A stretch of 64,000 nt of DNA, taken from Citrifermentans bremense. Its GTDB lineage: Bacteria > Desulfobacterota > Desulfuromonadia > Geobacterales > Geobacteraceae. Shown piece after piece: positions 20,648 to 38,471 of this stretch. The translations under genes were made by a program, and so were the position numbers. How positions within the stretch are numbered: the first letter of the stretch is position 1; each line of letters starts with the position of its first letter. The notes below the pieces were generated by a model that saw only the letters and a list, made by a program, of their open reading frames with translations, ran no database searches and was not told the origin of the DNA. The stretch covers positions 2,148,001 to 2,212,000 of the forward strand of contig NZ_AP023213.1 in the NCBI RefSeq assembly GCF_014218275.1, in the 5' to 3' direction.

Positions 20648-20968
20648 ATGCGTCGTCTATGTCTTCACTCCCTGTTGCTGGTATTTTTCACTGCTGCTTC
20701 CGTCCTCGCAGGTCCCCTCGAAGACTGCCGGGAGTACACCGTTTTCGGCGTTCCTGGAACCTCGGGGGATCTGCTCTGTCGCAAGGGATTCCTGCTTTCG
20801 CACGACGCAACGCGCAAGACCCCGGCCTGGGTTGTTGAGCGCATGACGAGGGAGCGGCTCAAGTCGGTCCTGAAGCGTTCCGACCGTTTCAAGCCGGACG
20901 CGGAGCTTCCCAAAGGGGCGCGGGCTGAACTCTCGGATTACAAGGGGTCGGGGTACGACAGGGGACAT
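20648..20968 (+). pseudogene. DNA/RNA non-specific endonuclease, N-terminal half (split by island)
   Basis: ATG 20648 begins a signal peptide (M-R-R-L-C-L-H-S-L-L-L-V-F-F) ending near VLAG. The following residues match the NUC1/NucA-type exported endonuclease family up to S-G-Y-D-R-G-H, the catalytic His motif. The codon after His (20966-20968) enters foreign sequence and a stop follows at 21053-21055. The missing second half, beginning H-M-A-P-A-A-D-M, lies at 38025-38471. Joined, the two parts give a normal protein of about 254 residues. The fragment lacks the Asn/Glu metal-site residues, so it should be inactive. Confidence 0.92.
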
Positions 20969-20997
20969 GTCGAAAACCCGGTTCAAAATATACTTTT
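20966..20997 (+). repeat. Left terminal inverted repeat of the island
   Basis: The blocks CATGT, GAAA, ACCCGGT and ATATACT occur here in order. They occur in the same order on the opposite strand at the right end, with one-base gaps and a variable 5-6 base middle. About 26 of 34 aligned positions match. Confidence 0.85.
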
Positions 20998-21396
20998 ATT
21001 TCAATCACGGGCTTTTCACTTGAGTTGCTATACTCCTCGCGACATACTCATGTGATAGAGGACGTTATAAGGCTGATAAAGGGTAAGTGAAGGATGTAGC
21101 GACTCCCATTCCGCGCATTTGGGTAAAACCCATAAAACCATCCAAATCGGATCACGGAAAATCACGTGGTTATGGTCACTGTAGGGGAGAGGTTTTGACC
21201 GCTAGAAAAAGCAAAAATCCTTGTTTAATCTACTAGAGGAACCAAAATCTTGGGGGGCGGGGACAACGCGGCAGGAGTGGCGTCTACAAGAGTTGAAGAC
21301 ATCCAGGATACTTTGTTGTAGGACCAGCGATATACCGTAAGGGGTGAGGCGCACCCGCGTACCCGCCGCGTTACCGGCTGGTTGTGTCGCCGAATG
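20969..21396. other. Left-end region of the island with a short WVKPI open frame
   Basis: No convincing gene fills this stretch. A 49-codon frame (GTG 21087 to TAG 21236) encodes R-I-W-V-K-P-I-K-P-S-K. The 16-base string GGGTAAAACCCATAAA inside it (21121-21136) recurs inverted at 24045-24060, where it also encodes M-W-V-K-P-I. The right part (21323-21402) holds a GC-rich palindromic spacer described separately. Confidence 0.4.
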
Positions 21397-21402
21397 TTAG
21401 GC
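21323..21402 (-). repeat. attC-like palindromic spacer A
   Basis: On the minus strand the HEPN gene stop codon TAA lies inside GCCTAAC, a match to the integron RYYYAAC core. It is followed by GCGACACAACCAGC and, 50 bases on, by the complementary GCTGGT. Spacer C shares GCGACAYAACCAGC. There is no clear distal GTTRRRY core, so this is only attC-like. Confidence 0.4.
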
Positions 21403-22143
21403 ATCTGATTTTTTCTTTGCCACTTCACGATATGCATCAGCAACCTCTTTTGGCAGAAAAACAAATTTTAATATTTCTTCAAGAATTTCAGGATGTAGAT
21501 ACAATGGAGAATTCACGGCCTGGAATGCAGTAGGTACACTGACCTGTTTACGTGTGACCTTACCAAAAAAGGCATTTTGCCAGATCAATGCACTTCTTGA
21601 TGAATTGTTTTTATTTTCAACTATTTTTTCTAGAAGCCCCCCAGATATTCTGAAAGTATGTGGTGGGTGTTTCTCGCTTTCCTTTATTTTTTGTATCTCT
21701 AGCTGAAGCATGTTTTTAATTTCACCATCTTGTTTGATGTCATAGTTAACTACTGTGCAGTAACGTCTAATCTCCCATATTGCTTTATCGAGCTCTACAA
21801 TCTTAGGCCCATGAATGAAATACGATGATTCAAGGTATCTGAATCGACCGAAGTTGGAAATGTGATTAATAAATTCGTCTGTGGATTTGCTGCGACGAAT
21901 TCTAAACGGAAGTTTTTTGGTATGCTTAAGTGCACACTCAAGATTGTGGTTAATATCACTCGCTTTTATCCTGTTGTATAGCAGGATAGCTTTAAGATAC
22001 TTCTCAATTGCCTGTAGCGATTGCCAATGAAATTGCGAGTATAGGCCATAGCGATATGAAAGGCGTGCAGCAATATAGTCTTGATCAGCTATATCTCTAA
22101 AACTTCTTGTTGCAAAATCATTCATCAGCGCTTCGATTTTCAT
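21397..22143 (-). CDS. HEPN-like domain protein
   Basis: 248 residues from ATG 22143 (AGGA upstream). Residues about 10-110 look like a HEPN helical bundle: D-Y-I-A-A-R-L-S-Y-R followed by H-W-Q-S-L-Q-A-I-E-K-Y-L-K-A-I-L-L is the typical A-x-Q-A-x-E-K-x-x-K-A-L helix. A possible R-x(6-9)-H ribonuclease-type pair occurs at R-Y-L-E-S-S-Y-F-I-H, but the canonical RxxxxH spacing is not clear. The C-terminal 140 residues are unrecognised. HEPN proteins are common RNA-cutting effectors or substrate-binding partners in toxin and defence loci. The gene is AT-rich and ends inside palindromic spacer A, like an integron cassette. Confidence 0.65.
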   Translation of the reverse strand: MKIEALMNDFATRSFRDIADQDYIAARLSYRYGLYSQFHWQSLQAIEKYLKAILLYNRIKASDINHNLECALKHTKKLPFRIRRSKSTDEFINHISNFGRFRYLESSYFIHGPKIVELDKAIWEIRRYCTVVNYDIKQDGEIKNMLQLEIQKIKESEKHPPHTFRISGGLLEKIVENKNNSSRSALIWQNAFFGKVTRKQVSVPTAFQAVNSPLYLHPEILEEILKFVFLPKEVADAYREVAKKKSDA

Positions 22144-22157
22144 ACATTTTCCTAATT

Positions 22158-22208
22158 GGCTAACGGCTGAGAGCACAGCGGGTTCACCGCTGCTGCGCTT
22201 GGTTGAAC
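22158..22208 (-). repeat. attC-like palindromic spacer B
   Basis: On the plus strand it runs from GGCTAAC to GTTGAAC and contains AGCGGGTTCACCGCT, a short stem-loop, in the middle. It sits between the HEPN gene start and the end of the next minus-strand gene, in the position expected of a cassette junction. Confidence 0.4.
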
Positions 22209-22268
22209 ATTCATGCAGTGTGCAGAGAATCTTTTGACAATTGGAGCCGCGCGCCCACTACATTGGGG

Positions 22269-23009
22269 TTAATTAACAAAGGCGGCATTGTTCTGGTCAA
22301 GTATAATAATGGTCTCACTGTTCTGTGTATCAACCTTATAATTCCACAAAGCCCCTGTCCCCTTTCCCGCTGTTTTGCAAACACCCATTAGATAATAAGC
22401 GCCAGGCTTAATATTTTCGAACTTTAGTGTTCCAGAAAAACTAGTCGTTCCCTTATAAACAATATGTGGTGCAATGGCTTGTATTGCCTTTCTATAATTA
22501 TATTTCATTTCTTTTACACCCCTATTCTCATCCTGTAGCTCATCATAGCCATTATGTACTGCTGAAAATTCGAATAAAATTGACGTTGGGTCATTAGGGT
22601 CATCCACACTCAACGTTGATATTATGTTTTCTTTTTTGAATATTTCAATAAGACTTTCATCTAGCAAATAAAACTCAGTCCTGGCTACAGGTTTAACATC
22701 ACCTGACTTGTAGACTAAACCAGCCTCAACTGAAATTACTCTGTCTGCTTTTACTTGGCCATCAACGATGGGCTGAACTTTCTCCTGTACAATAGGTGCT
22801 TTTTTCGTAACAACGACCGATTTCTCAGGTTCAATGGCTGCTTTATTTACTTCAGCGGCACTTTGTTTTGTAGCTGAATCGTAGCAAGCAAGACGTTTTT
22901 TGGAGTCTTTTATTGATGAACAATTCACAGATGTAGGCTGTGACGCTGCACTAGAAACCAATGGTATACTGAAAAGCAGTAACGCTACAGCAATAGTTTT
23001 TTTGATCAC
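22269..23009 (-). CDS. Exported protein of unknown function
   Basis: 246 residues from GTG 23009, which AAAAGGAG precedes at 9-base spacing. The N-terminus I-K-K-T-I-A-V-A-L-L-L-F-S-I-P is a signal peptide, cut near SSAAS. Just after it comes N-C-S-S-I-K-D-S-K-K-R-L-A-C-Y-D, a short Cys-pair motif (C-x(9,11)-R-L-x-C-Y-D) seen at the mature N-terminus of several small secreted bacterial proteins. The last 130 residues look beta-rich. The gene is low-GC and in the same orientation as its neighbours, each separated by a palindromic spacer. I cannot assign a function. Confidence 0.65.
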   Translation of the reverse strand: MIKKTIAVALLLFSIPLVSSAASQPTSVNCSSIKDSKKRLACYDSATKQSAAEVNKAAIEPEKSVVVTKKAPIVQEKVQPIVDGQVKADRVISVEAGLVYKSGDVKPVARTEFYLLDESLIEIFKKENIISTLSVDDPNDPTSILFEFSAVHNGYDELQDENRGVKEMKYNYRKAIQAIAPHIVYKGTTSFSGTLKFENIKPGAYYLMGVCKTAGKGTGALWNYKVDTQNSETIIILDQNNAAFVN

Positions 23010-23050
23010 GATAAAAATCTCCTTTTGACTCTTGGTTTTTAGTTTTGCCT

Positions 23051-23206
23051 TCATATACCGTAGCGGCTTATTGCTGCCCTGTCTCCGCACAGTTGATCGA
23101 GCGCAGCCCGACGAAGTCTTCCAAGAGGGTCAATACCACCACCTAGGAACGCCTGAGATATACGAAACTCACGATCGGTGTCGAAATTTTCAACAATTCT
23201 TTCCAT
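23051..23206 (-). CDS. Possible small protein (51 aa)
   Basis: A short frame beginning M-E-R-I-V-E-N-F with a weak GAGAG upstream ends just before the exported-protein gene. It is acidic at the start and basic at the end. It matches nothing I know and could be chance; it is listed because the interval otherwise has no gene. Confidence 0.25.
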   Translation of the reverse strand: MERIVENFDTDREFRISQAFLGGGIDPLGRLRRAALDQLCGDRAAISRYGI

Positions 23207-23248
23207 TTCGTCTTCTCTCACAAATAAATCCTCCCAGGTGGTTTCGTG

Positions 23249-23306
23249 GTTCAACGTCTCAAGGCTGACCAGCGGCGTCACCCGTCTCTAGCGCTGGTTA
23301 TGTCGC
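23249..23306 (-). repeat. attC-like palindromic spacer C
   Basis: On the minus strand GCGACATAACCAGCG (containing the TAA stop of the preceding gene) is answered by CGCTGGTC 18 bases later, and the element ends in GTTGAAC, which fits the integron GTTRRRY core. The start shares 13 of 14 bases with spacer A. Confidence 0.45.
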
Positions 23307-23653
23307 TTTTCTATGAGTAACTTTGTCAGCATGTTTTTCGAGAACAATCATCACTTTGTCAATTTCTTCTAGTTTGCCTTGAATGTTTGTTGTATCTAAT
23401 TTATTGTTAAGAATTAAGTCACACATCTTAGCAGTGTGAACAATGTAGTCAGTTAGTGGTGGCATTCTAGCTGCACTTGAGATTTGGGAAACATTCCGCC
23501 AGTGTTCAGCGGCAGTCCTAACAACTAGCTCACGGAAATGCTTTTCTCTTCGGTACGTTTGTTTATTAGTGCAACGGCAGCAGTAGATAAGCCGCCGACC
23601 AGCGCACCACCAAGAGTTCCAAAAACTGCTAATTCTGCGGGGGAAAGGGGCAA
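23298..23653 (-). pseudogene. Small single-helix membrane protein gene with a frameshift
   Basis: TTG 23653 follows AGGAGG at 5-base spacing. The first frame encodes a membrane helix (A-V-F-G-T-L-G-G-A-L-V-G-G-L-S) and then N-K-R-T-E-E-K, and stops soon after. From the A-run near 23540 the next frame continues H-F-R-E-L-V-V-R-T-A-A-E-H-W and on to a Lys/Glu-rich coiled coil ending in K-A-T. The span is one base short of 119 codons, so a single-base deletion in GAGAAAAG (or a read error) explains it. The stop codon lies in spacer C. Confidence 0.6.
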
Positions 23654-23772
23654 GGCATCCTCCTGTGGAACGATTATTAAGCCCAATACTTCATATGGCC
23701 TTTTTTGGGTGCATCCTTATGCATATTACAGATTTGTCTCATTGCTATACGGTGACATAACTACCTATTGAC

Positions 23773-23796
23773 CGGTTCACGCGCGCGCGTGAACCG
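23773..23796. repeat. 24-bp perfect palindrome with alternating CG core
   Basis: CGGTTCACGCGC is followed directly by its reverse complement. The alternating purine-pyrimidine core could extrude as a hairpin or adopt Z-form. It may be a bidirectional stop between the small membrane gene and its neighbour, or a protein-binding site. Confidence 0.7.
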
Positions 23797-23818
23797 ATTA
23801 TCTTCCTAGAGGTGATAT

Positions 23819-24103
23819 TTAATCTGTGCACATTTGGCTCCATTTATAAACTAGACCTCGCTCCTGGACAAGCAGAAAAAAAATCCATTTCTCGGTTGGA
23901 AAGCGAAACCAACTTACGGGCCAAAGTCGAGATTCGCCTTTGCTATCTTGATTAGTCAAATGGTCGCTGCCAGCCTCCGTGTCGGAGCCGTTTTTGATCT
24001 GGATTTTCAATTGTTTTGGATTCTCTTGTATCCCGTGTGATCCATTTATGGGTTTTACCCACATTTGAGCAGACACCTTCTCTCGCAGAAAATAACTGTC
24101 CAC
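23819..24103 (-). CDS. Hypothetical protein (94 aa)
   Basis: GTG 24103 with AGAGG upstream opens a 94-codon frame containing M-W-V-K-P-I-N-G-S, related to the W-V-K-P-I frame at the left end of the island. The composition is mixed, with many Trp and Phe near the end. It could be a remnant of a repeated element rather than an expressed gene. Confidence 0.3.
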   Translation of the reverse strand: MDSYFLREKVSAQMWVKPINGSHGIQENPKQLKIQIKNGSDTEAGSDHLTNQDSKGESRLWPVSWFRFPTEKWIFFLLVQERGLVYKWSQMCTD

Positions 24104-24306
24104 AAAGAACCTCTATAATACCAGTGGTTTAATGTCGATAGAAGAGCCTTGTTTAACGGATTTTGGCATTCTCTTGTAAATTATCTAGCCTATATGGGCA
24201 TTGAATAGGCCGATGAAAGGTTAAAAAACTGGATTTGAGACTAACAATGTGGCATAAGAGGCACCTAACTCCACAATGAGCACACAAGTCTGCCGGGAAG
24301 GAAGCC

Positions 24307-24762
24307 ATGCAAACACTTGGTATTCGGTGCACCCCGAGCGAGGTCGTTTTTGCAGTCTATGACTCTGAAGAACGAGCCATCGTGAACAACGAGAAGATTA
24401 AGATTCCTGCCGCAATGGAAATCCCGACCGCTTTGAAATTCGTCCGCAGCAACCTTTTGGATGTTTTGCGTGAGTACGACATTCAGCGTGCCGGCATCAG
24501 GGTAACCGAGCCAAATGCACAGCAGTTTAATGTCCCCAGAATACAGATTGAAGGCGTCATTCAGGAAGCTTTTGCAAGCAGTAGTGTAGAAGGGTATTAC
24601 GTCGGCCAGATTTCTTCAATTTCGGCGCGGCTTGGAATCCAGCGTGCAGATTTCAAAAAGTACATTAGCGGCGAACTGGAGTATGAAGTTGAAGGGTGGG
24701 GAGACCTTTCTGCACATGAAAGAGAGGCGCTTCTATGTGCAATAGGAGCGGCAAATGATTAA
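24307..24762 (+). CDS. RuvC/RNase H-fold-like protein of a kinase operon
   Basis: 151 residues, ATG preceded by GGAAGGA. The start T-L-G-I-R-C-T-P-S-E-V-V-F-A-V-Y-D resembles the first hairpin of RuvC/RNase H-fold proteins. A later strand and helix (A-G-I-R-V-T-E-P, I-E-G-V-I-Q-E-A-F) and the closing helix (H-E-R-E-A-L-L-C-A-I-G-A) fit the same fold. The first catalytic Asp of RuvC is replaced (G-I-R rather than G-I-D), so it may bind rather than cut nucleic acid. The gene overlaps the kinase gene by 8 bp, so the two are translated together. The fold call is my reading and not certain; no function can be fixed. Confidence 0.65.
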   Translation: MQTLGIRCTPSEVVFAVYDSEERAIVNNEKIKIPAAMEIPTALKFVRSNLLDVLREYDIQRAGIRVTEPNAQQFNVPRIQIEGVIQEAFASSSVEGYYVGQISSISARLGIQRADFKKYISGELEYEVEGWGDLSAHEREALLCAIGAAND

Positions 24763-25795
24763 ACCGTACAACAAGGCGGAAGTCACTTTTGACATTATTC
24801 GGGAAATTGGTGAAGACGGTTACAACTCTACCGTGTACCTAGCCCATGACCATAATCTCGACGCCGAGTTGGTCGTTAAGAAGATGGAAAAGGCCAAGCT
24901 ACGTGACCCAAACGAATACTTCCGAGAGTCCAGAATCCTGTACATGAGTGCACATCCGAATGTAGTGCCGGTCCACTATGCGTGTGAGGATGTCGACTCC
25001 GTGTACATCGCCATGCCGTACTACCAGAATGGGTCGCTTAACTCACTCTTGAACGCCCGTTTTCTGACAGTCCGCGAAATCCTAGTCTATGCCTGTCAGT
25101 TTCTTTCAGGCGTGCACAATGTCCATTCCAAAAAACTCATTCATTTCGATATAAAACCTGCAAATGTGCTTATTTCCAACACGAACGAAGCTGTTCTTTC
25201 AGACTTTGGGATTGCAAAGCAGGCTAACTTAGTGGGCGTTGCAGGACAGGACGTTTTTTATTTCAGCATTCGGCCGCCTGAAGCCCTGGACAATGACCAC
25301 TTCACAACTGCTTGTGATATCTACCAAATCGGATTGACGCTTTATCGTATGTGCAATGGCAATGAAAACTACTATGCGCAGCTTGAGCGATATGGTGAGC
25401 CGCCGAACTTCGATAGAGATGCGTTCCGCTATGACTTGAGAAACGGCAGGTTCCCGGACCGGAACCACTTCCTGCCGCACATTCCTGAGAAGCTCAGGAG
25501 AATCGTAAAGAAGTGTCTCGATACCAATCCGGACAGGCGCTATGAGGCTGTTTTGGACATTTCCAACGCACTTGCTGAAGTCGACGGAAATGAGCTAGAC
25601 TGGCAGCACAGCGTGGAAGATGGTAAACTTATATGGAAGAAGCGGGCTAACGGAAACCATTACACGCTAGAGGTGGATGAAAACCAGAAGTCCGTCGCTA
25701 AAAAGCGCACCACAAAACAAGAATCTCGAATCAAAGACTATTGCGTGGATGCCATTCCACAGAAAACGATACGAGAATTCTTGAAGGTGACCTGA
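24755..25795 (+). CDS. Eukaryotic-type Ser/Thr protein kinase
   Basis: 346 residues. The kinase domain covers about 10-275: glycine loop I-G-E-D-G-Y-N-S-T-V-Y, Lys42/43 in ELVVKK, the catalytic loop HFDIKPAN with Asp132, Lys134 and Asn137 (Phe replaces the usual Arg of HRD), DFG at 150-152, and P-P-E for the APE motif. All residues needed for phosphotransfer are present. The C-terminal 70 residues are Lys-rich with no membrane helix, so the protein is cytoplasmic, unlike PknB-type receptors. Soluble kinases of this kind occur in phage-defence loci such as Stk2 and PD-T4-6. The gene is the middle of a tight three-gene operon; substrates are unknown. Confidence 0.9.
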   Translation: MIKPYNKAEVTFDIIREIGEDGYNSTVYLAHDHNLDAELVVKKMEKAKLRDPNEYFRESRILYMSAHPNVVPVHYACEDVDSVYIAMPYYQNGSLNSLLNARFLTVREILVYACQFLSGVHNVHSKKLIHFDIKPANVLISNTNEAVLSDFGIAKQANLVGVAGQDVFYFSIRPPEALDNDHFTTACDIYQIGLTLYRMCNGNENYYAQLERYGEPPNFDRDAFRYDLRNGRFPDRNHFLPHIPEKLRRIVKKCLDTNPDRRYEAVLDISNALAEVDGNELDWQHSVEDGKLIWKKRANGNHYTLEVDENQKSVAKKRTTKQESRIKDYCVDAIPQKTIREFLKVT

Positions 25796-25796
25796 G

Positions 25797-26316: not shown

Positions 26317-26550
26317 TCATGCTTCTTTTGTCATCTCAGCTTCTGCTAACTCAATTAAATAGGCAGCTTTAACTCCAAGAACCTTCGAGAGTTCCAAAAT
26401 GGTCTTTAAGGATGGTTGCCTCAAACCCCGCTCTAGCAGGGATATAAAGGTCCTATCCAGGTTCGCCTCCAAGGCCAGCTTCTCCTGAGAAAGACCCTTT
26501 TTCCCGCGAAGTTCGCACAACACTCTACCAAACGCCTCTTCAGGTCTCAC
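26317..26550 (-). CDS. XRE-family transcriptional regulator
   Basis: 77 residues. This is a single Cro/C1-type helix-turn-helix: L-R-G-K-K-G-L-S-Q-E-K-L-A (helix 2), D-R-T-F-I-S-L-L-E-R-G (recognition helix) and P-S-L-K-T-I-L-E-L-S-K-V-L-G. It lacks any extra domain. Such small XRE proteins often silence defence or mobile-element promoters. It is convergent with the kinase operon and divergent from the 76-aa gene at 26718; the AT-rich 170-bp divergent region is the likely operator area. Confidence 0.9.
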   Translation of the reverse strand: MRPEEAFGRVLCELRGKKGLSQEKLALEANLDRTFISLLERGLRQPSLKTILELSKVLGVKAAYLIELAEAEMTKEA

Positions 26551-27317: not shown

Positions 27318-28070
27318 ATGGCAATTATCGCGACTGACATACATGGTGACCCCGCTGTAGCCAAAGCTTTCCTCAGTTTTCGGCCCACCGAGTTGCATAT
27401 CTGCCTTGGGGACCTTGTTGACAGCAAAGGCCGCCCACCATCTTTTGAAAAGGAGGCAGAATGCCTCAACCTCCTGCTCCAATCCGATTCTATTCTGTTG
27501 TGGGGCAATCACGACCTAGCTTATCTTCCAGAGCGTCCATGGAAGTGTTATGGTGATTTCGGGGAAATTGCATTTCGGAAACAGTTCGACGAAGCTCGGG
27601 ATCAATTCCTCGCCGCCTATTCCGTCGATGGCTGGCTGTGTACTCATGCGGGCATCTCACCAAAAGTGGAGCGCATTCTCACGAAGGAGGTGGCGATATC
27701 CGACCAAACTGCAGTTGCGGCTTGGCTCAATTCGGAATTCAAAAAAGAACTCAGGATCAAGCTCCCTCACAATGATCCAGATGAATTGCGCCATGGGTAT
27801 GGGCCATTGTTCAAAATCCACGTATGTCGTGGCGGAACTGATGAGTATGGTGGGATTTTCTGGTTTGATGCGTTTGGTGAACAGGCCCAACCAAGTCCTG
27901 CAGCTGGTCGGCAAATCTTCGGACACACTCCTGTACCCTATCCAGAGAGAGGAACCAGCCATGACATACTCGGCGGCCCTGCGATTTCTTGGATTAACCT
28001 CAACGCCATTGAGGGGCATTGGGTGTACGATACTCAACGTGACGAACTAAGCGAACTGCTCATCCTCTAA
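27318..28070 (+). CDS. Calcineurin-like metallophosphoesterase
   Basis: 250 residues. The dinuclear metal-site motifs of the PPP/bis(5'-nucleosyl)-tetraphosphatase-like group are all present: D7-I-H9, G-D32-L-V-D35, G-N64-H65-D66, then H-A-G near 113 and G-H-T-P-V near 200. The protein may remove phosphate from proteins or nucleotides. It sits alone between the XRE/small-protein pair and the DUF2971 gene. A kinase and a phosphatase in the same island suggest opposed activities, but there is no operon link. No signal peptide is present. Confidence 0.85.
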   Translation: MAIIATDIHGDPAVAKAFLSFRPTELHICLGDLVDSKGRPPSFEKEAECLNLLLQSDSILLWGNHDLAYLPERPWKCYGDFGEIAFRKQFDEARDQFLAAYSVDGWLCTHAGISPKVERILTKEVAISDQTAVAAWLNSEFKKELRIKLPHNDPDELRHGYGPLFKIHVCRGGTDEYGGIFWFDAFGEQAQPSPAAGRQIFGHTPVPYPERGTSHDILGGPAISWINLNAIEGHWVYDTQRDELSELLIL

Positions 28071-28214
28071 TGCTCAAGACCTGCCTTATGTTCGCCTACA
28101 GCGCAATTTCCTTCTTTGGATCAGGCGCTGCCAGTGCATCATTGCTGATCAGGGGAGGGCAGCAAGATCACCTGAAGCTGCTGGTTGATAAATTATGGAA
28201 GGAAAACGTTAAAA

Positions 28215-29162
28215 ATGGAATTATACAGGTACAGTCGATTAAGTGATAACATCATAAAGTACTTAAGAGACAGAAAGCTCTACTTTCAAAATCCACTCTA
28301 TTTCAATGACCCATTTGATTGCGATTTGACAGCTGTTAGCCTCGGTCCTGAAGATAATTTTGACGAAAAATATGAGCTATATATTCAACTTTTGGCTAAA
28401 CGACTAAAATTTGTAGCAGGGAAGCTGCGGCTTATTGATGCAAGGATTACCGACTACGCCTCAGATGACACTCCCATAAAAGATCGTTTTTACTTTGCGG
28501 AACAGTGGCATTTGTATTTGACTGAGAATAACGCTCTTCTTGCTGAAATCAGAATGCTAACTGAATGTCCTACTTCGAAGCGACGAGAAACCCTATTAGA
28601 AGCTTGGAATAAGAAAAAAAACCAAGTAATCCATGGACTTGGTGTTGTTTGCTTTAGTGAAAGCAACTCTAACCTGTTGATGTGGTCACATTACGCAGAC
28701 TCGCATAAGGGGATATGTCTTATTTATGAATCTGAAGAAAGGCCTGTAGTCGGATGGAAACAATATTCATTTCATAAAGTTAAATACAATAAGAATAGGA
28801 ATATCGATGTTTTAAGTGTTGGTTTTGAAAAGGCTTTTTTTGACTTGTTGACTATAAAATCTCCTGAATGGGAGTACGAAAAAGAGCAGAGGCTAATAAC
28901 TATTAAGGGACCTGGAACCCAGAAGTCTAGGATGGCAAGCTTACGAGGCATTGTATTTGGATCTAGAATAAAAGATAACCCTGGCACGTCCTTGGTCGGA
29001 TTGTACGGTGCCTTAAAGGACATGCATCAGACCCGTCCCAATTGCCCAAGGTTTAGATATTATAAAGCTGTGAAACATCCGAGCGATTTTGCAGTTGAAA
29101 TCAAGGAGTTATTCGGAATACAAGCTGTGCCTGATGCCTTAGGGGTGGTGCCATTCACCTAA
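28215..29162 (+). CDS. DUF2971 family protein
   Basis: 315 residues from ATG 28215 (AAGGAAAA upstream). The start E-L-Y-R-Y-S-R-L-S-D-N, then R-K-L-Y-F-Q-N-P-L-Y-F-N-D-P-F-D, is the DUF2971 signature. The middle has C-F-S-E-S-N-S-N-L-L-M-W-S-H-Y-A, and later E-W-E-Y-E-K-E-Q-R follows the family pattern. DUF2971 proteins have no proven activity but recur on genomic islands beside defence genes. The base composition is clearly AT-rich compared with the flanking chromosome, supporting acquisition by transfer. Confidence 0.85.
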   Translation: MELYRYSRLSDNIIKYLRDRKLYFQNPLYFNDPFDCDLTAVSLGPEDNFDEKYELYIQLLAKRLKFVAGKLRLIDARITDYASDDTPIKDRFYFAEQWHLYLTENNALLAEIRMLTECPTSKRRETLLEAWNKKKNQVIHGLGVVCFSESNSNLLMWSHYADSHKGICLIYESEERPVVGWKQYSFHKVKYNKNRNIDVLSVGFEKAFFDLLTIKSPEWEYEKEQRLITIKGPGTQKSRMASLRGIVFGSRIKDNPGTSLVGLYGALKDMHQTRPNCPRFRYYKAVKHPSDFAVEIKELFGIQAVPDALGVVPFT

Positions 29163-29572: not shown

Positions 29573-29598
29573 AGCCACCTGCCCATATACAGTTGTGT

Positions 29599-32052
29599 TT
29601 AGTGGTTCCACTCGCCGGTCAGGACCCTCTGCGCTCCGCTGACTGCGCGTTCTCTGGGGACAGAGATTCCAAAGTCAAGCCAATGGATAACGTTGTAATG
29701 TAGCGGGGAAGCACCCGCCAGGTATTGGCGGAACAGCTTTTCTAAGCGCTTTTTGGGTAAAGACTTGATTGCCTTTAGCGCGGTTGTCTTGCGAACACTC
29801 TCGTCCTCCGAGCGCAGCAGACTCTCGATGTATGAGTCACTTAGCTGTGCAAAAACTTTGTCATGGATCTCTTTGAGGACTAGAACCAATAGTTCCTTCG
29901 GCTTTTCTATGCCCAACAAGTCGACTACCCTCTGACGCCCCAGAGCATAGATCGCTTGTGCTGCATATTTTGCTTTTGTCTGGTCAATGGCAGATATTGT
30001 TAACAGCGTCCTCTCGCCAATCTGACGTGTCAACATGTCTATGACCAGTTTGATGTCTTCCCATTCCCCGTGTTTTCCAAGATATTGGATATCCTCAACA
30101 CTGTATTCGATTGAGCCATTTTTCAATAGTCGTCGAATTCGTTCCAGATCACAGTGATCGCCTCTCTCACGAATTACATCCAATGCCTTCCGCATGAGCG
30201 TTTTTCGAATAAATCCCTCAAGTTCCTTCGCTTTCTCATAGTTAGGATGCCCAGCAAACTGCGAAAGCCATGCGGAAACTTCAGTCTCAAAATTATTATC
30301 GATTGAGCTTCGCAATGAGTCTCCCAAACGCTTAAAACTTCGTTGCACCAAAATGAAATAGGCGTCATTATCGACAATCGAATCCTTGGCTGCGGCTGCT
30401 TCCAACTCTTTATACTTCAAAGCCCTTTGCCGTTGCTTCAGGAACTTCTTGAAGCAAGCTTCTCCATGAGGATCGGACCCTATAAGCCCGCGTGCGATTC
30501 CTGTGGCAGTTGGCTTTACAAGTATATTTTTTGCCTCATCGTCGGAATAAACCCGTTCGTGATCAACGAGATAGCTCAATGCTGAGTGCCTTACCGTTGC
30601 TTCAGTATCACTAAGCAACTCCTCCGCAAGGTTAATTGGCAGAGCGGTACGCTCACAAAGAAGACTGATAACCTTCCGGCGCACAGCAGGCGATTGATGT
30701 GATGCGCCGCGTAGCAGTACTTCTGTGCTAAGAGTCGCCGGGTTACTGAAAAGGGCAGCAAGAAGTTTGTCGTCTACGCTGCCAGGCTGAAGTTCATATA
30801 GATGCTCAAATGCGCCTTCCCGACTCTCTCGAAGACTAATCGAGATAAACGCATTAGCTGCAGCTGGTAGAGTCTGGTTGTCCTTTCTATCAATTTCCCC
30901 ACGAATAGTGTCCAAGTCTGAGGGTGTACCGCAAGCTGCAAGATACTTTAGCGCTGCAAGCCTTACCGGAACTGGTGTGTTGTCATGAAACCACGATGAT
31001 GGGAACAAATTCGCAATCCACCTCTCGGTTTTAGGGATAGGCTGTAATATCAATTGCAGTGCGGCGAAAGTGTTAATTTGCTTCTGAGCTGGGGCAGACA
31101 AGGTGTGGAGGAAAAGTGTAATGTCATCAAAGCCATTGACACCATGGATCCATTGCCATAGAGGAACATTCTCATGCAGGAAGTTTTGAAGCCCTGTACT
31201 TATTAGTCCGTGAAGCTCACTTCGGCCTAGATTAAAATTACCGCCCTTAAAAAAAATAAGGTTTGTATCGTGTGTGCCAAGAAAAACCTCATCATTACCC
31301 TGCGCACCGACTATAGAAGTCAACAACCGAAACCGAGCGATGTCAACAGCTTCGACTGCTTCCCCTGTACGTCCCTCAGTTTTCGCAACAAAATGCCGCA
31401 AGAAGTCAGCTCCCTCTAGAGAGAGAGGTGTTTCAACTGCATTACTTGCAGGTCTATTCTGCTGTTGTTCGCCCTCGTTTGATGAGACCTGAGTTTCTTC
31501 AGGCAATGTTGCCTGTTCCTCTATGCGTAGGTGTTTGACGAACGAGGATAAACAACGCATTAGCTTCTTTTCAAAGTCACGACAGTCGTTAAAATTCTCG
31601 AAGTAGATCCTCTTTTCAGAAATAAGTTGTTCTTTAAAGGCGAGAACTTTTTTGAGATCTGCGCCTGGATCACGCAGGAGCTCTGGGTCGATCTCTTTGA
31701 AAAACAGACTTATCTCGGGGCGACCTTCAGTCAGCCGACGCTGAACAGACCTCGAGTATTCTTCTTCGAAGCCGGAGGTGTGTTTTCCCACATTATCAGG
31801 AGGTGTTCCCCACCGTCTCCACATCAGTCCCACAAACAACTCGCAGCGGTCCAGATCGCGATTTATCATTTCCTGAGGACGACCAAAAACAGCAACTGTA
31901 TCTTCCCAGCCGACAAGCTCAACTTGGTAGCCAAATTCCTCTGCCCACAAATCATTGAAGTCGGTAACCACTGTTTTCGCTGCTTTTCGTTCTTCCGTGA
32001 GGTCTCCTGGGGATGCCAGAAATACCTTTACGAGTCTCCTGCTGTCGGCCAT
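29599..32052 (-). CDS. DUF4062 (TIR-like) protein with HEAT-like repeats
   Basis: 817 residues. The N-terminus V-K-V-F-L-A-S-P-G-D-L-T-E-E-R is the DUF4062 signature, a domain related to TIR folds. The domain runs to about residue 100 (C-E-L-F-V-G-L-M-W-R-R-W-G). Residues 190-280 are an alpha-beta region of unclear type. Residues about 330-800 look like helical HEAT/ARM-type repeats (A-L-K-Y-L-A-A-C-G, P-A-V-R-R-K-V-I-S-L-L, A-T-V-R-H-S-A-L-S-Y-L). A TIR-like effector joined to a repeat sensor is a common layout of single-gene anti-phage systems, in which binding of a phage product triggers the effector. There is no NTPase core. The function is inferred. Confidence 0.8.
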   Translation of the reverse strand: MADSRRLVKVFLASPGDLTEERKAAKTVVTDFNDLWAEEFGYQVELVGWEDTVAVFGRPQEMINRDLDRCELFVGLMWRRWGTPPDNVGKHTSGFEEEYSRSVQRRLTEGRPEISLFFKEIDPELLRDPGADLKKVLAFKEQLISEKRIYFENFNDCRDFEKKLMRCLSSFVKHLRIEEQATLPEETQVSSNEGEQQQNRPASNAVETPLSLEGADFLRHFVAKTEGRTGEAVEAVDIARFRLLTSIVGAQGNDEVFLGTHDTNLIFFKGGNFNLGRSELHGLISTGLQNFLHENVPLWQWIHGVNGFDDITLFLHTLSAPAQKQINTFAALQLILQPIPKTERWIANLFPSSWFHDNTPVPVRLAALKYLAACGTPSDLDTIRGEIDRKDNQTLPAAANAFISISLRESREGAFEHLYELQPGSVDDKLLAALFSNPATLSTEVLLRGASHQSPAVRRKVISLLCERTALPINLAEELLSDTEATVRHSALSYLVDHERVYSDDEAKNILVKPTATGIARGLIGSDPHGEACFKKFLKQRQRALKYKELEAAAAKDSIVDNDAYFILVQRSFKRLGDSLRSSIDNNFETEVSAWLSQFAGHPNYEKAKELEGFIRKTLMRKALDVIRERGDHCDLERIRRLLKNGSIEYSVEDIQYLGKHGEWEDIKLVIDMLTRQIGERTLLTISAIDQTKAKYAAQAIYALGRQRVVDLLGIEKPKELLVLVLKEIHDKVFAQLSDSYIESLLRSEDESVRKTTALKAIKSLPKKRLEKLFRQYLAGASPLHYNVIHWLDFGISVPRERAVSGAQRVLTGEWNH

Positions 32053-32792: not shown

Positions 32793-34181
32793 ATGCAAAT
32801 TTATACTGAATCAGTCATTGTCCGCGACACCATCCGTGCAGGACGCCCTACGGTTTTGCTACTCGTGGGCATTGAACCCTTGGAAGCGCTGCTGGCCTTC
32901 TTCAGAGAAAGGTGTGCATCGTTGGTGGCCGAAAGGAGCTATGTTCAGGCTGTAGGCCGATTCATCGAATGGCTATCGGTGCGTGCAGAGGAGTTCTATA
33001 GCCAAGACCAGCGGTACCTACTTTACACGGCTTTCCTCCACGATTTACGCTTTGGTACCTATCGTCAAGGCATCGACAAGTATGGTCTTAATTGGCGGCC
33101 TACAAGTGACAGCAATCTGAGACGGCTTACCCGCTGCCTTTTCGAATTTAGCGATTGGCTCAGTAAACGGCAGGGGACAATAGCTATTAGCCCAATTCGA
33201 CAAAATGCTTCATATTCTGATCAGATAGTGTTCTGGCGGTACTGGAATAAACGCAAAGCAACATCTCTGCTGGGGCATATAAAACGCCGCCGTCACGGTG
33301 TAGAAATTGAAAGGACCCCCACCCGTATTGTACCCCGTCAACGGAACAAACATCTTGCTGAGGCCAAAGCGTTCCCTATTAAATATATCGACGCTTTATT
33401 GTGGCAAGGGTTCGCAAGACCAGGAAATCATGCCTATACTCCGCCCTGGCAAAAATTTAACCTCAGAGACATCCTTATAACGCTACTCTGTCTCTACGGC
33501 GGCTGTCGCGAAAGTGAGCCGATGCACTTATGGGTTGATGATGTCTTTGTGGACCCAGACGATCCTGATGTAGCTCTGGTACTGATTCACGAACCTGAAA
33601 CGGGTATTGTGAATTTTACCGATCCACTCACGGGCACCAAACGTAAGACCACGCGTTCTGATTTTCTGCAACGTCACTGTGGAGGCCGCATACCGCTGAC
33701 TCAAGAAACCGGTCGGCGACATGCTGGATGGAAAGGAGCATTGCTCACTCATAGGGAGCGTAATGCGTTCCAGGTATTTTGGATCGACCGTGGGGCAGGG
33801 CGTCTGTTCCTTGAATTGTGGCGGATGTACCTACACCACATCCGTCCAGTGACACTTCAAATGCCGTGGGCCTTCCTTACCAGAGACGGGCAACCTCTTG
33901 GAACTGAAGGCTTTAACGATTCATTCAATGCTGCGGTTCAACGAATAGGATTGTTCCCGTCCAAACATGCAGGGACAACGACCCATGGGCTTCGACACCG
34001 CTACGGCCAGTGGCTTAACGACCTGGGGCTTGGAGAAAAGGAAGGGCAAGTCGCGATGCATCATCTAAACGCCAAAAGCCAGGATTTTTATCGACAACTC
34101 GGAGTGGCCCAGGTTGCTGCTGTCGTCGGGGCCGCTACTGACATTGCATCATTACCATCTTTCATAAAGGGCTGCACTTAA
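32793..34181 (+). CDS. gmtY: Tyrosine recombinase, GmtY-like (first of trio)
   Basis: 462 residues. An N-terminal core-binding part (about 30-130) is followed by the catalytic domain. The catalytic tetrad is visible: Arg239 in GGCRESEP, His398-x-x-Arg401 in THGLRHRYG, His423/424 in AMHHLNA and the nucleophile Tyr433 in DFYRQL. It should cut and rejoin the island ends. Order, lengths and motifs match the gamma-mobile-trio operon, in which the shorter recombinase comes first. The stop overlaps the next start (TAATG), so translation is coupled. Confidence 0.85.
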   Translation: MQIYTESVIVRDTIRAGRPTVLLLVGIEPLEALLAFFRERCASLVAERSYVQAVGRFIEWLSVRAEEFYSQDQRYLLYTAFLHDLRFGTYRQGIDKYGLNWRPTSDSNLRRLTRCLFEFSDWLSKRQGTIAISPIRQNASYSDQIVFWRYWNKRKATSLLGHIKRRRHGVEIERTPTRIVPRQRNKHLAEAKAFPIKYIDALLWQGFARPGNHAYTPPWQKFNLRDILITLLCLYGGCRESEPMHLWVDDVFVDPDDPDVALVLIHEPETGIVNFTDPLTGTKRKTTRSDFLQRHCGGRIPLTQETGRRHAGWKGALLTHRERNAFQVFWIDRGAGRLFLELWRMYLHHIRPVTLQMPWAFLTRDGQPLGTEGFNDSFNAAVQRIGLFPSKHAGTTTHGLRHRYGQWLNDLGLGEKEGQVAMHHLNAKSQDFYRQLGVAQVAAVVGAATDIASLPSFIKGCT

Positions 34182-37100
34182 TGACCTCTACGATTACCCA
34201 AATCGACGATTTCATCGCCATTAAAAGTTGTCTTACAGGGCGGACGATTTATGTGAATCAGAAACCTGACCGCTACCTAATTTCCCCTGAGTTTTCGCAA
34301 GAGGAAGTCCGCCGTGTGGTGGCAATCTGGGAGAACCACGTATGTGCACGAAAGCTTGTACATCGCCCACCTCCCCCTTTGCGAAAAGCCATTGTTGCTC
34401 TAGGCAATGAAAATACGCCTCTGGGATTATCGAAGGCCTTGGACCGGGTCCTCTTGACCGAGTACCTACACAAATTTTCGACTACAAGCATCCAGCAGAA
34501 ACAAAATTTTGTCATCGAATTGATGTTAGCGCTATGGTCTGTTGGCGCAGTGGCTTGGCCGACACACGAGCAAGTGCCGTTTACTCAGAGGAACAGCATA
34601 CAAGTTAACAATTTAGGTTTTATTGGCCCTCAGCGGGAATGGCTTGCACGAGTCCGCAACTACGTTGCAAGAGGTGTAGGTGATGACGCAAGTAATTTCC
34701 GGTTTATCCTGGACACCTCTCTTAGCCGCGCAGGTATCACTGAAATTGGGGATATAACACCTCAAACTTTCAAATTAAGCAAAGACACAGTGCGGGGAAA
34801 ACTCCGTGGTCCAGGCATAAATGCAGTGCTGCAGTGCTTGCGAGAGGATTACAAAGAACAGAGATTAACTTGGATACCAGATGATTTTGGTTTTTTTAAA
34901 GATAAAATGGGACACCTCGCACGCGATGATGACTTCAACTGGCTGTTAAAACAGGCTCCAGATATGGAGCAATGGGTTAGGCTCGCCAAAGAACATATTG
35001 CTACCAAACCGGCAAATTGGAAGAAGCGAAAGTCGGTTATGAATGTTTTCCTTCAACATATTATGGAAAACGAAGACATTTCAAGGGACCCATCAGCTTA
35101 TTTCAACATCTATGATAGGCCCAAGGTTCTCTTTAATGCACCTGGTAATGAGGGCAGGAAAACTATGTCAGTTCTGCATGAATTCCTCAACGAGACGCTG
35201 TTTAAGACATGTACACTGTCGACCGATCTTGACATACCGGTTCTCAAGCCTGGTTTCGCCGTTCCTATCCCTCGCCAAGCATACAGAAATGTCAACAAGG
35301 GAGAAACCCATCGTGAAACCATGCCTATGCGGCTCATTCGGCAAGCGATGGGGATTCTAACTGAAAACGATTTTGCATGGGCGCGCAATGTCGACAGACA
35401 CCACGACAGTTTCCGCAGCCGCAACCCGGAAACCGGAAATTATGAAACTGTGTGGAGTCCTGTCCGCACTTATGCCCTAATGATAAAGTTGCTTCTCCCT
35501 GCCCGAACGTTCCAGGTAAGGTGTATTGACAGCGGTGAAGGTGACACTTGGCGTTATCACTCGGATGGCCGATGGGTCACCAATGAGGGGCCACATAAAC
35601 CCGCGAGTCCCAAGATTGTTCAGCGGGGCATTTTTCGTAAATACCTCAGAAAGGACGGATCAGAGGGAGCTATCTTCTATTTTAACACCAATAAGACTGC
35701 TGACATCGATAGCATGGTCAAGGGCTACGTCATGCCTTGGGAGAAACCTGACGCCCTTCAGATATTCGCCGCGATGCGCGATTGGCAGGAACGTTTTAAT
35801 CCCGTTAACGGTGCTACACCATGGTCAGAAATCCCTGAGATGAAGGATATGAAACACGAGGAAGACCTTACTAAGTTGGGTGAAAACTTCTTCTTATTCC
35901 GTGACCCTTGCCATCGGCATCGTCCTGATCTGCCAGTAAGCGACGTCCGGATCCGACGGATGTGGTTCAAGCTCCTAGAGGAATTGGAGGTGCGATTAGC
36001 AAGGGCCGGTGAAAAAATGCCCAATGGAGAGCCGATAAAACTAATTTTGTCGAGAAATAACAAAGGAGGACGTGCGTCTTCTGCCGTTTTTGACCTTCAC
36101 ACCCTGCGAGTGACCCTCATAACTGCTATGTACGAAGAGGGGGTCCCGCCGGAATATCTGATGAAGATAGTTGGTCATGCAACGGTGCTGATGACGCTCT
36201 ATTACACTAAAATCAATATTGAGACGCTTAGCCTGCGAATGAACGAGGCCCTTCTTGAACGGCAAAGGAAGGCGCAGATCGAGATGGCAGGTTTCCTCCA
36301 AAAGGCAAGTCGTAAGGAGCTTGATAGCTTCGCCGCCTACCGGAACCCGGCCGGGCTCGATGCGCTGTATACCAGCACTGGCTCCGGCATGGTGGTGATG
36401 GACCACGGCATTTGTCCTGTATCGACTCGCCGTTGCCATGAAGGCCTTGTATTCAATGACCCCACCAATGGTACTTCACGGTACCAACCCGTCCCTGGAG
36501 GGGCAACAAACTGCGTCCGTTGCCGGTTCTTTATCACTGGGCCGGCGTTCCTTCTTGGCCTTGAAGCCCACGTGAACGACCTATCTTATCGACTGAAGAA
36601 GAGGTCTTACGCATTCGAAAAGGCACAGGACCTCTTCGATACTATTTCGGACGAATACGCCGCAGCTTTGGACTCTGGCGAGCCATTTCATCGTCAGCGG
36701 GATTTGGAGGTTGCGGAAACAGCCTTCGAGGCTGCAACTGCCGAGGTAGACGCTATCGCTCTTAGCCTGCAAGCGGCCTACTCGCTTACGGAACTATCTA
36801 TCCGTATTACTTCCCAGCAATCGAAAAGTGACGAGCTGGTTTTGGTTGCGGCGGGAGGGCTCGACCATGTAGAGGCAGTCCTGTCGGAATCCCACGAATT
36901 TGAACAGGTTCAACGAATTTGCATGGGAGCCACTTTTTACGATGGGCTCAACATAAATTGGCAACTGGCTAATCTGGAGCGGGCAAGGTTCTTTGATCGG
37001 ATGTTACGGGCTAACGGGCTTGAACCGCGGTTTTCGCTGCTAAATGATGATGACGCTCTAAAGATTGCCAATGCAATGGGGCAGTTCTTGTACGCACGAA

Positions 37101-37255
37101 TTGAAAAGGATTCAGTACACGCGCTGATTGATGGAGATATCTCTCTCTGCGATCTCGGCTTAGATAAGCAATTCGTTTCTCAGCTTGACAATCTGGTGCC
37201 TAGAACCCTGCAAACTACTTTATCGAAACAGCAACTACTGGAGGTAGTTTCATAG
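34181..37255 (+). CDS. gmtZ: Large tyrosine-recombinase-like protein, GmtZ-like (second of trio)
   Basis: 1024 residues. The recombinase motifs lie in the middle: Arg in LLLPARTFQVRC (about 440), HTLRVTL (about 640-646), GHATVLMTLYY with the likely Tyr nucleophile (about 664-677). They are followed by a Cys-rich module of the VPA1269/GmtZ type: G-I-C-P-V-S-T-R-R-C-H-E-G and, about 35 residues on, C-V-R-C-R-F-F-I-T-G-P (about 743-790). That module probably binds zinc. Residues 800-1024 form long helices. The protein is far longer than ordinary integrases (300-450). It is co-transcribed with its neighbours and probably forms a complex with the shorter recombinase. Confidence 0.85.
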   Translation: MTSTITQIDDFIAIKSCLTGRTIYVNQKPDRYLISPEFSQEEVRRVVAIWENHVCARKLVHRPPPPLRKAIVALGNENTPLGLSKALDRVLLTEYLHKFSTTSIQQKQNFVIELMLALWSVGAVAWPTHEQVPFTQRNSIQVNNLGFIGPQREWLARVRNYVARGVGDDASNFRFILDTSLSRAGITEIGDITPQTFKLSKDTVRGKLRGPGINAVLQCLREDYKEQRLTWIPDDFGFFKDKMGHLARDDDFNWLLKQAPDMEQWVRLAKEHIATKPANWKKRKSVMNVFLQHIMENEDISRDPSAYFNIYDRPKVLFNAPGNEGRKTMSVLHEFLNETLFKTCTLSTDLDIPVLKPGFAVPIPRQAYRNVNKGETHRETMPMRLIRQAMGILTENDFAWARNVDRHHDSFRSRNPETGNYETVWSPVRTYALMIKLLLPARTFQVRCIDSGEGDTWRYHSDGRWVTNEGPHKPASPKIVQRGIFRKYLRKDGSEGAIFYFNTNKTADIDSMVKGYVMPWEKPDALQIFAAMRDWQERFNPVNGATPWSEIPEMKDMKHEEDLTKLGENFFLFRDPCHRHRPDLPVSDVRIRRMWFKLLEELEVRLARAGEKMPNGEPIKLILSRNNKGGRASSAVFDLHTLRVTLITAMYEEGVPPEYLMKIVGHATVLMTLYYTKINIETLSLRMNEALLERQRKAQIEMAGFLQKASRKELDSFAAYRNPAGLDALYTSTGSGMVVMDHGICPVSTRRCHEGLVFNDPTNGTSRYQPVPGGATNCVRCRFFITGPAFLLGLEAHVNDLSYRLKKRSYAFEKAQDLFDTISDEYAAALDSGEPFHRQRDLEVAETAFEAATAEVDAIALSLQAAYSLTELSIRITSQQSKSDELVLVAAGGLDHVEAVLSESHEFEQVQRICMGATFYDGLNINWQLANLERARFFDRMLRANGLEPRFSLLNDDDALKIANAMGQFLYARIEKDSVHALIDGDISLCDLGLDKQFVSQLDNLVPRTLQTTLSKQQLLEVVS

Positions 37256-37954
37256 GTGACCAAAGTCATACCCACAACCACAGCTCCCGATGTTGTGAAG
37301 GATGCTAGGCAACTTTACCGGCTTTATAGGGATGCGGCTAACCGACCTTCGAAGGTGGACAATCTTGATCGTCTATGGGAGGTCCTTGACTCAATCCGTA
37401 ACGAGGGCGGCAGGGACTACTCCATTGCCGAGATTGGGCGTCGCCTTGAATCCATAGGCGGGCCGAAAACGCAAAGCATGCGTAACGCCCAAGGTGCGTA
37501 CTTCCGCGAGATAATAACGGCTTACGCCAATGCAGTGAACGGCTCAACACGCTACATTGCAGCCAGCAAGTCTAGGGTTGAACAAGCTCTCGACCTAGTT
37601 TCCGATCCTAGCGTTCGCGCTACTCTCCGAATGGCAATTGAGGAAGGACGACGGCTGAAGATTGTTAATGATAACCTGCACGCTGCTTTCAAGAATCTCC
37701 ACGTTGGAGTTTCACTCTCGACAACGTCCGAAGAAGCTGGGATAAAGCAAAATTCTCCTGGCCAGCAACTGCCGCAGAGATTCCGAGCAGCGCTGGCTAA
37801 AGGCATCGATGAAACCCGACTCGCCCAACAGGGACTCGTCGTGGAGGCTGACGGCAGTATTTGCAATGAAGTCGGCGACCGCCTGTTCCCTCCCTCTTTC
37901 GTCACTGCAATTTTGGCTGTGCTGATACCCGGCATTCCCGGGGGGGGCTGTTGA
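37256..37954 (+). CDS. gmtX: GmtX-like accessory protein (third of trio)
   Basis: 232 residues, GTG directly following the TAG stop of the large recombinase gene. The segment R-D-Y-S-I-A-E-I-G-R-R-L-E-S-I-G-G-P-K-T-Q-S-M-R-N (about 55-85) reads like the pattern in GmtX proteins (D-[FY]-S-I-x-x-I-G ... G-G-P-x-x-Q-x-[IM]-R-N), likely a DNA-binding helix-turn-helix. Helical middle and a short hydrophobic C-terminus follow. No catalytic motif is seen. It ends 44 bases before the right terminal inverted repeat, as expected for an end-binding accessory factor; that role is inference. Confidence 0.75.
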   Translation: MTKVIPTTTAPDVVKDARQLYRLYRDAANRPSKVDNLDRLWEVLDSIRNEGGRDYSIAEIGRRLESIGGPKTQSMRNAQGAYFREIITAYANAVNGSTRYIAASKSRVEQALDLVSDPSVRATLRMAIEEGRRLKIVNDNLHAAFKNLHVGVSLSTTSEEAGIKQNSPGQQLPQRFRAALAKGIDETRLAQQGLVVEADGSICNEVGDRLFPPSFVTAILAVLIPGIPGGGC

Positions 37955-37997
37955 CTAACCGAAGTCCCAAAGAGAAGAACACAAAACACAAAAGCCG

Positions 37998-38030
37998 AAG
38001 AGTATATTCCTCCACCGGGTATTTCACATG
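37998..38030 (-). repeat. Right terminal inverted repeat of the island
   Basis: Read on the minus strand it gives CATGT, GAAA, ACCCGGT and ATATACT in the same order as the left end. Its last bases, CACATG, also belong to the restored endonuclease frame (His-Met). Confidence 0.85.
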
Positions 38031-38471
38031 GCACCTGCCGCAGACATGGCGTGGGATGCAGCAGCCATGTCGGAGAGCTTTTACCTCTCGAACATGGTCC
38101 CGCAGGCCGGTGAAGGGATGAATCGCGGCATCTGGGCCGTGCTGGAAAAGAAGGCGCGCCAGTGGGTGGAGAAACGCGGGGAACTGTACATCTACAGCGG
38201 GCCGATCTACCGGGAAGGGGACGTGAAGACCATCGGTCGCAACAAGGTGGCGGTCCCGGACGCTCTATTCAAGGTGGTCCTAGATCCGGCAAGGCATGAG
38301 GCAATTGCGGTGATCATGCCCAACCGGCGGCTCGACACCCGGGACATGCCGAAATACCTGGTCCCGGTGCGCGAAGTGGAAAGGCTTACGGGCCTTGAGT
38401 TCTTCTCCACCCTTCCCCAGGAAGAGCAGGACCGGATCGAGGTGCCCAAACCAGAGGACCTCTGGCAATGA
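38025..38471 (+). pseudogene. DNA/RNA non-specific endonuclease, C-terminal half (split by island)
   Basis: The frame H-M-A-P-A-A-D-M continues the D-R-G-H motif lost at 20968. Downstream are family residues A-M-S-E-S-F-Y-L-S-N-M-V-P-Q and N-R-G-I-W-A-V-L-E, which place the metal-binding Asn and the helix after it. The fragment encodes 147 residues from ATG 38028 and ends at TGA 38469-38471. It has no ribosome-binding site of its own and no signal peptide, so it should not be functional unless the island excises. It converges with the S10 peptidase gene. Confidence 0.92.

Follow-up and report, generated by a model that had tools for sequence, protein, structure and literature searches.

A gamma-mobile-trio island interrupts an NS nuclease gene of Citrifermentans bremense at its active-site motif, which its branch of elements appears to target

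The 64,000 nucleotides of the Citrifermentans bremense genome analysed here (assembly GCF_014218275.1, contig NZ_AP023213.1, positions 2,148,001 to 2,212,000; this whole stretch is called the window) contain a gene for a putatively exported NS nuclease that is cut in two by a 17,059-bp block. Judging from its genes, this block is a gamma-mobile-trio (GMT) island, because its GmtY, GmtZ and GmtX all exceed the curated cut-offs of their families. We consider it very probable that the island was inserted, by conservative recombination of the tyrosine-recombinase type, into the DNA coding for the D-R-G-H-x-x-P motif of the nuclease. The GMT branch formed by the window island and its relatives in Polaromonas and Rubrivivax appears to target this active-site motif in the sequences compared, because these relatives, the two closest that we found, are inserted into host nuclease genes at the same codon as the window island. 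GMT islands are known already; what is new is the target, the codon for the active-site His of nuclease genes. We take this His of D-R-G-H to be the general base of the nuclease. The elements of the interrupted gene and of the island on which this reading is based are the following.

20648..20965, plus strand: N-terminal half of the nuclease gene, 106 host codons from the ATG at 20648, putative signal peptide to D-R-G (PF01223, 52 bits, profile positions 8-85)
20966..20971, plus strand: hexamer CATGTC (His-Val) at the N-side junction, foreign, its length of six bases being probable, different from the 16 same-genus orthologues
20972..21050, plus strand: island end A, terminal repeat GAAAACCCGG-9nt-TACTT with two more TACTC motifs behind it, common to the Polaromonas and Rubrivivax islands
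32793..34181, plus strand: GmtY tyrosine recombinase (NF040693, 472.1 bits, cut-off 340)
34181..37255, plus strand: GmtZ large integrase (NF047926, 676.3 bits, cut-off 600; PF13009, 247.9 bits)
37256..37954, plus strand: GmtX (NF040692, 110.6 bits, cut-off 40)
37995..38024, minus strand: island end B, terminal repeat AAATACCCGG-10nt-TACTC, in inverted orientation to the repeat of end A
38025..38030, plus strand: hexamer CACATG (His-Met) at the C-side junction, native, as in 13 of the 16 same-genus orthologues
38025..38471, plus strand: C-terminal half of the nuclease gene, starting at the active-site His codon and 148 codons long (PF01223, 137.8 bits, profile positions 85-222)

The left frame continues as G-Y-D-R-G-H past 20965 into foreign DNA, and the right half starts with H-M-A-P-A-A-D-M at 38025, its stop codon ending at 38471. 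The two halves were matched separately by Pfam PF01223 (Endonuclease_NS) over complementary stretches of the profile (8-85 versus 85-222), and both this domain and the D-R-G-H motif underlie the assignment of the target gene to the NS endonucleases. Among solved chains, the orthologue from locus L006 of the same genus matched those named Endonuclease G, EXOG, "Nuclease" and extracellular endonuclease, the latter two of which are presumably NucA and Serratia nuclease. On our own reading the N-half begins with a signal peptide, and the product would be an exported NS-type nuclease. A previous sequence-only reading had described an exported endonuclease gene cut in two at D-R-G-H, with a joined frame of about 254 residues; this description was confirmed by the complementary PF01223 matches around an interruption of 17,059 bp and by the sum of the two halves (106 + 148 = 254 codons).

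The right half was used as a query in 58 genomes, the window's own among them, and 25 of them gave a match. A homologue was present in 16 of the 18 other genomes of the genus, the best match of each being an open frame of 258-293 aa, and no stop interrupted the motif in any of these 16 loci. We made alignments across the junction in six loci (L005-L010). In the two closest ones, L005 and L006 (protein 92-93% identical), the left flank aligned to 20967 and the right flank from 38025 with an overlap of 2 bases, so that the window aligned head to tail over 19584-20967 and 38025-39875 (L005) or 38025-39957 (L006). The left alignment of the remaining four stopped at 20958 to 20972 and the right one began at 38024 or 38025. 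The DNA of the neighbouring genes, left and right, aligned in the same order in all six loci. Since the flank alignments meet at the junction in relatives, the size of the island is 17,059 bp. One criterion for a GMT island is its absence from the same place in relatives, and the aligned sites of L005 and L006 were both empty. The insertion put forward by the sequence-only reading was thus borne out, close relatives having uninterrupted homologues with the same neighbours.

The G+C content of the island is 40-53%, versus 56-64% in its flanks (1-kb bins). The genes of the trio are adjacent, in the order Y-Z-X, and are the last three ahead of the right end of the island, all of them above the curated NCBIfam cut-offs. 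R239, R401, H402, H424 and Y433 were invariant across four aligned GmtYs, that of the window included; we assume these to be the tyrosine-recombinase residues.

A GmtY scan of genome contigs yielded two loci, one in a Rubrivivax metagenome-assembled genome (MAG; 65% identical) and one in Chromobacterium (44%), and 145 plasmid records had a match, one of which exceeded 60%, the Polaromonas plasmid pPNAP01 (65%). On pPNAP01, a nuclease N-half (D-R-G-H, to profile position 86) and a C-half (H-L-A-P, from position 85) flank a GMT island of 8,107 bp. In the Rubrivivax MAG, a C-half (G457:C15 45587-45955) and an N-half (69043-69369) flank a GMT island of 23,174 bp; a homologue of this C-half exists in four of the 15 other genomes of that genus (80-93% identity, open frames of 331-350 aa), and the alignments of both island flanks with these four homologues break within the core. 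The same His codon of the host nuclease gene was therefore the insertion point in all three members of the clade that we found, in three different hosts. In a GmtY tree of 19 rows, the window, Polaromonas and Rubrivivax proteins formed one clade (support 100/100), with Chromobacterium branching next (100/98).

Further searches for GmtY used differing queries and cut-offs on overlapping sets of genomes, centre genomes included; the larger ones sampled their group and scored the best candidates per genome. Matches were obtained in 1 of 395 genomes of the host phylum (E 1e-30; the window's own), 4 of 48 of the family and 3 of 141 of the order. Around Rubrivivax, the numbers of genomes with a match were 3 of 399 (order), 8 of 399 (family) and 1 of 369 (class; G457 itself), and in the Chromobacterium family 8 of 61. 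These searches revealed no further member of the 65% clade in the sampled groups. Viral contigs contained no relative by the GmtY query, the junction pattern or the four-row GmtY alignment, and phage records gave no GmtY match. One genome of the Chromobacterium-family set harbours two distinct GMT loci, G614:C12 (L099) and G614:C3 (L102), and the Caballeronia plasmid pSBC1_4 has a second integrase-type gene set about 5 kb upstream of its GMT trio (L054 2842-7476).

More distant GMT loci served as a comparison. We assembled 22 of them, two of which share one genome: G005, G013, G456, G1202, G1009, G1020, G1088, G1103, G912, G973, G614:C12, G625, three plasmids out of the 145 with a GmtY match (L053-L055), G1728, G1712, G1733, G1716, G1706, G1731 and G614:C3. 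A split NS nuclease was found at none of the 22 in the DNA examined. A decayed nuclease fragment by the G1009 locus (L071 2346-2681) was considered and rejected as a target, its sequence beginning well after D-R-G-H. The sequence-only reading had also suggested that the element targets a conserved run of nuclease codons; the related insertions at the same codon in pPNAP01 and in the Rubrivivax MAG, together with the 22 distant loci, lend support to this suggestion. Chromobacterium, as the sister (44%), was left outside the 22. In the GMT locus of Chromobacterium haemolyticum, an NS nuclease copy that is frameshifted but not split lies immediately upstream of gmtY (L032, approximately 9080-9625).

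The junctions themselves carry two different hexamers. On the C-side, the window has CACATG, Polaromonas CACCTA and Rubrivivax CACCTC, all of which fit uninterrupted relatives: the core reads CACATG in 13, CATATG in two and CACCTG in one of the 16 same-genus orthologues of the window nuclease, CACCTA in the Polaromonas homologue pH8NP2, and CACTTG, CACCTG, CATCTC and CACCTC in the four Rubrivivax relatives. On the N-side, we observed CATGTC (His-Val) in the window and CACATG (His-Met) in both Polaromonas and Rubrivivax. In all three islands, then, the hexamer next to the C-half is of the native type and the one next to the N-half is foreign, and we infer from this pattern that the foreign hexamer is a coupling sequence brought from the previous nuclease target. 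Among 32 distinct D-R/Q-G-H sites in the retrieved loci, which were chosen as relatives of these nuclease genes and tallied with a pattern admitting Met, Leu, Ile and Val only, His-Met occurred 19 times, His-Leu seven, His-Val five and His-Ile once. Plasmid pPNAP05 of the same Polaromonas strain bears an unannotated, decayed nuclease homologue (L056, approximately 1295-2025) with a C-half 67% identical and several frame breaks; one break, made by two additional bases, falls precisely on the core of the target site and may be the scar of an excision or a product of decay alone.

The six ends of the three islands, read inward, share the arrangement NAATACCCGG-9/10nt-TACTC with at most one change per part, and form imperfect inverted repeats. 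Additional TACTC motifs follow the end A repeat in all three islands. The polarity is constant: end A (9-nt spacing) lies on the N-side and end B (10-nt spacing) on the C-side in each of them. We rejected insertion in both orientations on this ground, as it is the trio that is reversed and not the ends; apparently the trio changes its place or orientation within the element.

In the mechanism that we propose by analogy with Tn554-like elements, the His-X codons would form a core of about 6 bp; GmtY and GmtZ would cut on either side of it and exchange strands there, and the mismatched donor hexamer would be retained at end A in a coupling similar to that of Tn554 and Tn916. A near-invariant protein motif would keep the underlying DNA conserved enough for recognition and thus open a wide choice of hosts. 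Because of the structure of the junctions, excision would restore the gene; it would leave a readable nuclease, either hexamer giving His and a hydrophobic residue.

In two of the islands, the truncated gene is immediately followed by a nuclease gene that belongs to the island. That of Rubrivivax is an intact gene of the NS type, which begins 13 bases past the end of the frame of the truncated gene, in the same direction, and whose product is 39-47% identical to the broken nuclease over the aligned parts. In pPNAP01, a gene for endonuclease I occupies the same place with the same direction, 70 bases on. Such a carried nuclease might replace or exploit the lost activity, and both options remain compatible with the data. 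At a distinctly lower level of confidence, the GMT lineage might hop from one nuclease gene to the next through recognition of the DNA for the catalytic histidine, keeping the His-X codons of its previous target at end A as a six-base trace of its origin and bringing a replacement secreted nuclease behind the promoter of its victim.

Several observations weigh against a branch targeting nuclease genes by the route outlined above. There are three insertions, two of which (Polaromonas and Rubrivivax) are sisters in the GmtY tree (support 96/88), and the CACATG shared by these two sister islands may just be a constant component of end A. The CATGTC of the window is absent from the 32 tallied sites, though His-Val occurs among them. 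Rhodoferax antarcticus, the second Polaromonas-type homologue, has CACATG and not CACCTA, which makes the native hexamer of pPNAP01 less sure, and the core length of 6 bp is drawn from three alignments. Taken one island at a time, the repeat pairs have modest scores: out of 2000 mononucleotide shuffles, 1 scored as high for the window, 0 for Polaromonas and 3 for Rubrivivax. With up to two mismatches, the two-part motif also has one match in the window away from the ends, at 10733, where the spacing differs, and a stricter consensus built on end B matches, with up to three mismatches, end B alone in the window. Relative to the ends, the trio of the window (32793-37954) is reversed in comparison with the Rubrivivax and Polaromonas islands (L031, L036). 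A secreted nuclease gene was not recognised in the window island, so that replacement holds in two islands out of three. Several of the 22 distant loci have short contigs or flanks: G013 lies near a contig end, G456, G1020 and G1728 are on contigs of 12.6, 8 and 16.6 kb, G625 is short on one side, and the three plasmids offer about 12 kb per side. Finally, mobility, recombinase activity and a circular form are predicted properties of the island.

Alternative explanations have to be compared with the targeted insertion that we favour. An assembly artefact, or two separate genes in place of one split gene, has nothing but the split itself in its favour and a practically negligible probability: the genome is a single contig of 4,458,493 bases, uninterrupted homologues are found between the same neighbours, and the same arrangement recurs in two other records. 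The three nuclease cases might also represent ordinary GMT insertions with little site preference, brought together by coincidence or because nuclease genes are common on mobile DNA. NS nucleases are indeed frequent on plasmids (at E 1e-5, the Polaromonas C-half finds a match in 230 of 72,556 plasmid records), and two identical GMT islands of one Vibrio isolate lie in different syntenic regions, according to excerpts of PMC12039261. We nevertheless regard this explanation as highly improbable, since the codon at the junctions and the polarity of the ends to the gene are identical in all three cases, in two chromosomal or MAG contigs and one plasmid, and a split nuclease flanks none of the 22 distant loci in the DNA examined.

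The loss of the nuclease could itself be the selected benefit, through reduced degradation of incoming or extracellular DNA, and not a by-product of a conserved site. Mobile elements are reported, in excerpts of PMC4774983 and PMC11472951, to disrupt transformation genes and to carry DNases lowering transformation, and thus to act on this balance. This explanation is unlikely here, because two of the three islands bring a nuclease of their own to the same place (of the NS type in Rubrivivax, endonuclease I in Polaromonas), which is the opposite of removing the activity. A programmed or regulated switch, in which conditional excision of the island restores the nuclease as with elements interrupting developmental genes, would be in agreement with the host coding sequence being kept on both sides of the core in all three cases and with the His and hydrophobic residue encoded by either hexamer. 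However, any site-specific element that inserts conservatively should leave precise junctions, and we find such a switch quite improbable.

The other genes of the window island, and the two genes that adjoin the nuclease gene both here and in the relatives, are listed below.

19546..20451, minus strand: left neighbour gene, by alignment ORF 74-973 of L006
21397..22176, minus strand: HEPN-domain protein (PF05168, 26 bits, cut-off 22)
22269..23090, minus strand: protein with a hydrophobic stretch that, on our own reading, resembles a signal peptide; sub-threshold match to VasI (PF11319, 18.4 bits, below the cut-off of 26.5)
24307..24762, plus strand: 151-aa protein from an open reading frame (ORF) overlapping the kinase start, no match in the family scans
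24755..25795, plus strand: Ser/Thr protein kinase resembling defence kinases (PF00069, 141.6 bits; PADLOC mad6 178.7 and PD-T4-6 135.9 bits, in part generic kinase similarity)
26317..26550, minus strand: Cro/C1-type helix-turn-helix regulator (PF01381, 52 bits)
27318..28070, plus strand: calcineurin-like phosphoesterase (PF00149, 37.4 bits)
28185..29162, plus strand: DUF2971 protein, candidate defence family PDC-S31 (PF11185, 31.6 bits; PADLOC, 143.2 bits)
29599..32052, minus strand: DUF4062 protein with HEAT repeats, its N-terminus similar to candidate defence family PDC-S60 (PF13271, 31.9 bits; PADLOC, 102.2 bits, residues 5-186)
38478..40067, minus strand: right neighbour gene, by alignment ORF 1975-3153 of L006

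The candidate defence cargo comprises these PADLOC matches to PDC-S31, PDC-S60 and defence kinases, which are partial or generic. No relaxase or type IV secretion system, phage structural gene or DDE transposase appeared among the Pfam, NCBIfam and PADLOC matches of the scanned island ORFs, a set that covers the small ORFs in part and does not draw on PHROGs. The window contains no tRNA gene, the region 19000-40000 no Rfam family and the island no tandem repeat. The stop codon of the HEPN gene sits in a GCCTAAC sequence (21396-21402, minus strand), which we take to be the core-site form at the ends of integron cassettes, and this gene may be a captured cassette. Elsewhere in the window (50700-64000, minus strand), two very long frames, of 2409 codons and of at least 2037 codons running off the window, would at a guess encode a multidomain synthase.

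A clade with a single codon-level target makes the choice of site by GMT islands testable, and it suggests that recombinase clades within GMT differ in their target. The three islands would represent a three-recombinase system of natural origin whose target motif is conserved in a large nuclease family. With the nuclease gene that it carries at the junction, such an element would either compensate for the function that it destroyed or turn this function to its own use. In the literature searched, from which the founding GMT paper was absent, we found no report of GMT insertion into nuclease genes, which may nevertheless be in print, and nothing on how these islands choose their insertion site.

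Foreign bases at one junction recall elements of the Tn916/CTnDOT type, in which a few bases from the previous site are kept at the junction as coupling sequences. These elements are conjugative, whereas the scanned ORFs of the window island include no recognisable conjugation gene. The Tn554/Tn6188 family resembles the present elements in having three consecutive recombinase genes (tnpABC) and a strong preference for one conserved site inside a protein gene, radC, across diverged hosts, as described in excerpts of PMC3788773. Its target is radC and not an Endonuclease_NS gene, and the window trio scores as GmtY, GmtZ and GmtX with no Tnp model among the listed NCBIfam matches. Tn6188 is moreover said in the same excerpts to lack flanking inverted repeats (PMC3788773), which the window clade has. 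The closest known system is that of the GMT islands themselves, defined by GmtY, GmtZ and GmtX (Mahata et al., 2024, as cited in excerpts of PMC12715929 and PMC12039261; the citation is also in PMC11888443) and portrayed, in Vibrio, as mobile arsenals of genes acting against bacteria and phages (excerpts of PMC12039261). The window island agrees with the excerpted descriptions (PMC12715929, PMC12039261) in its trio, ordered Y-Z-X and above cut-offs, and may also resemble them in its cargo, with its partial or generic matches to candidate anti-phage families. It differs in that its clade occupies one nuclease codon motif in three hosts, whereas the identical Vibrio GMT islands lie at different sites (excerpts of PMC12039261).

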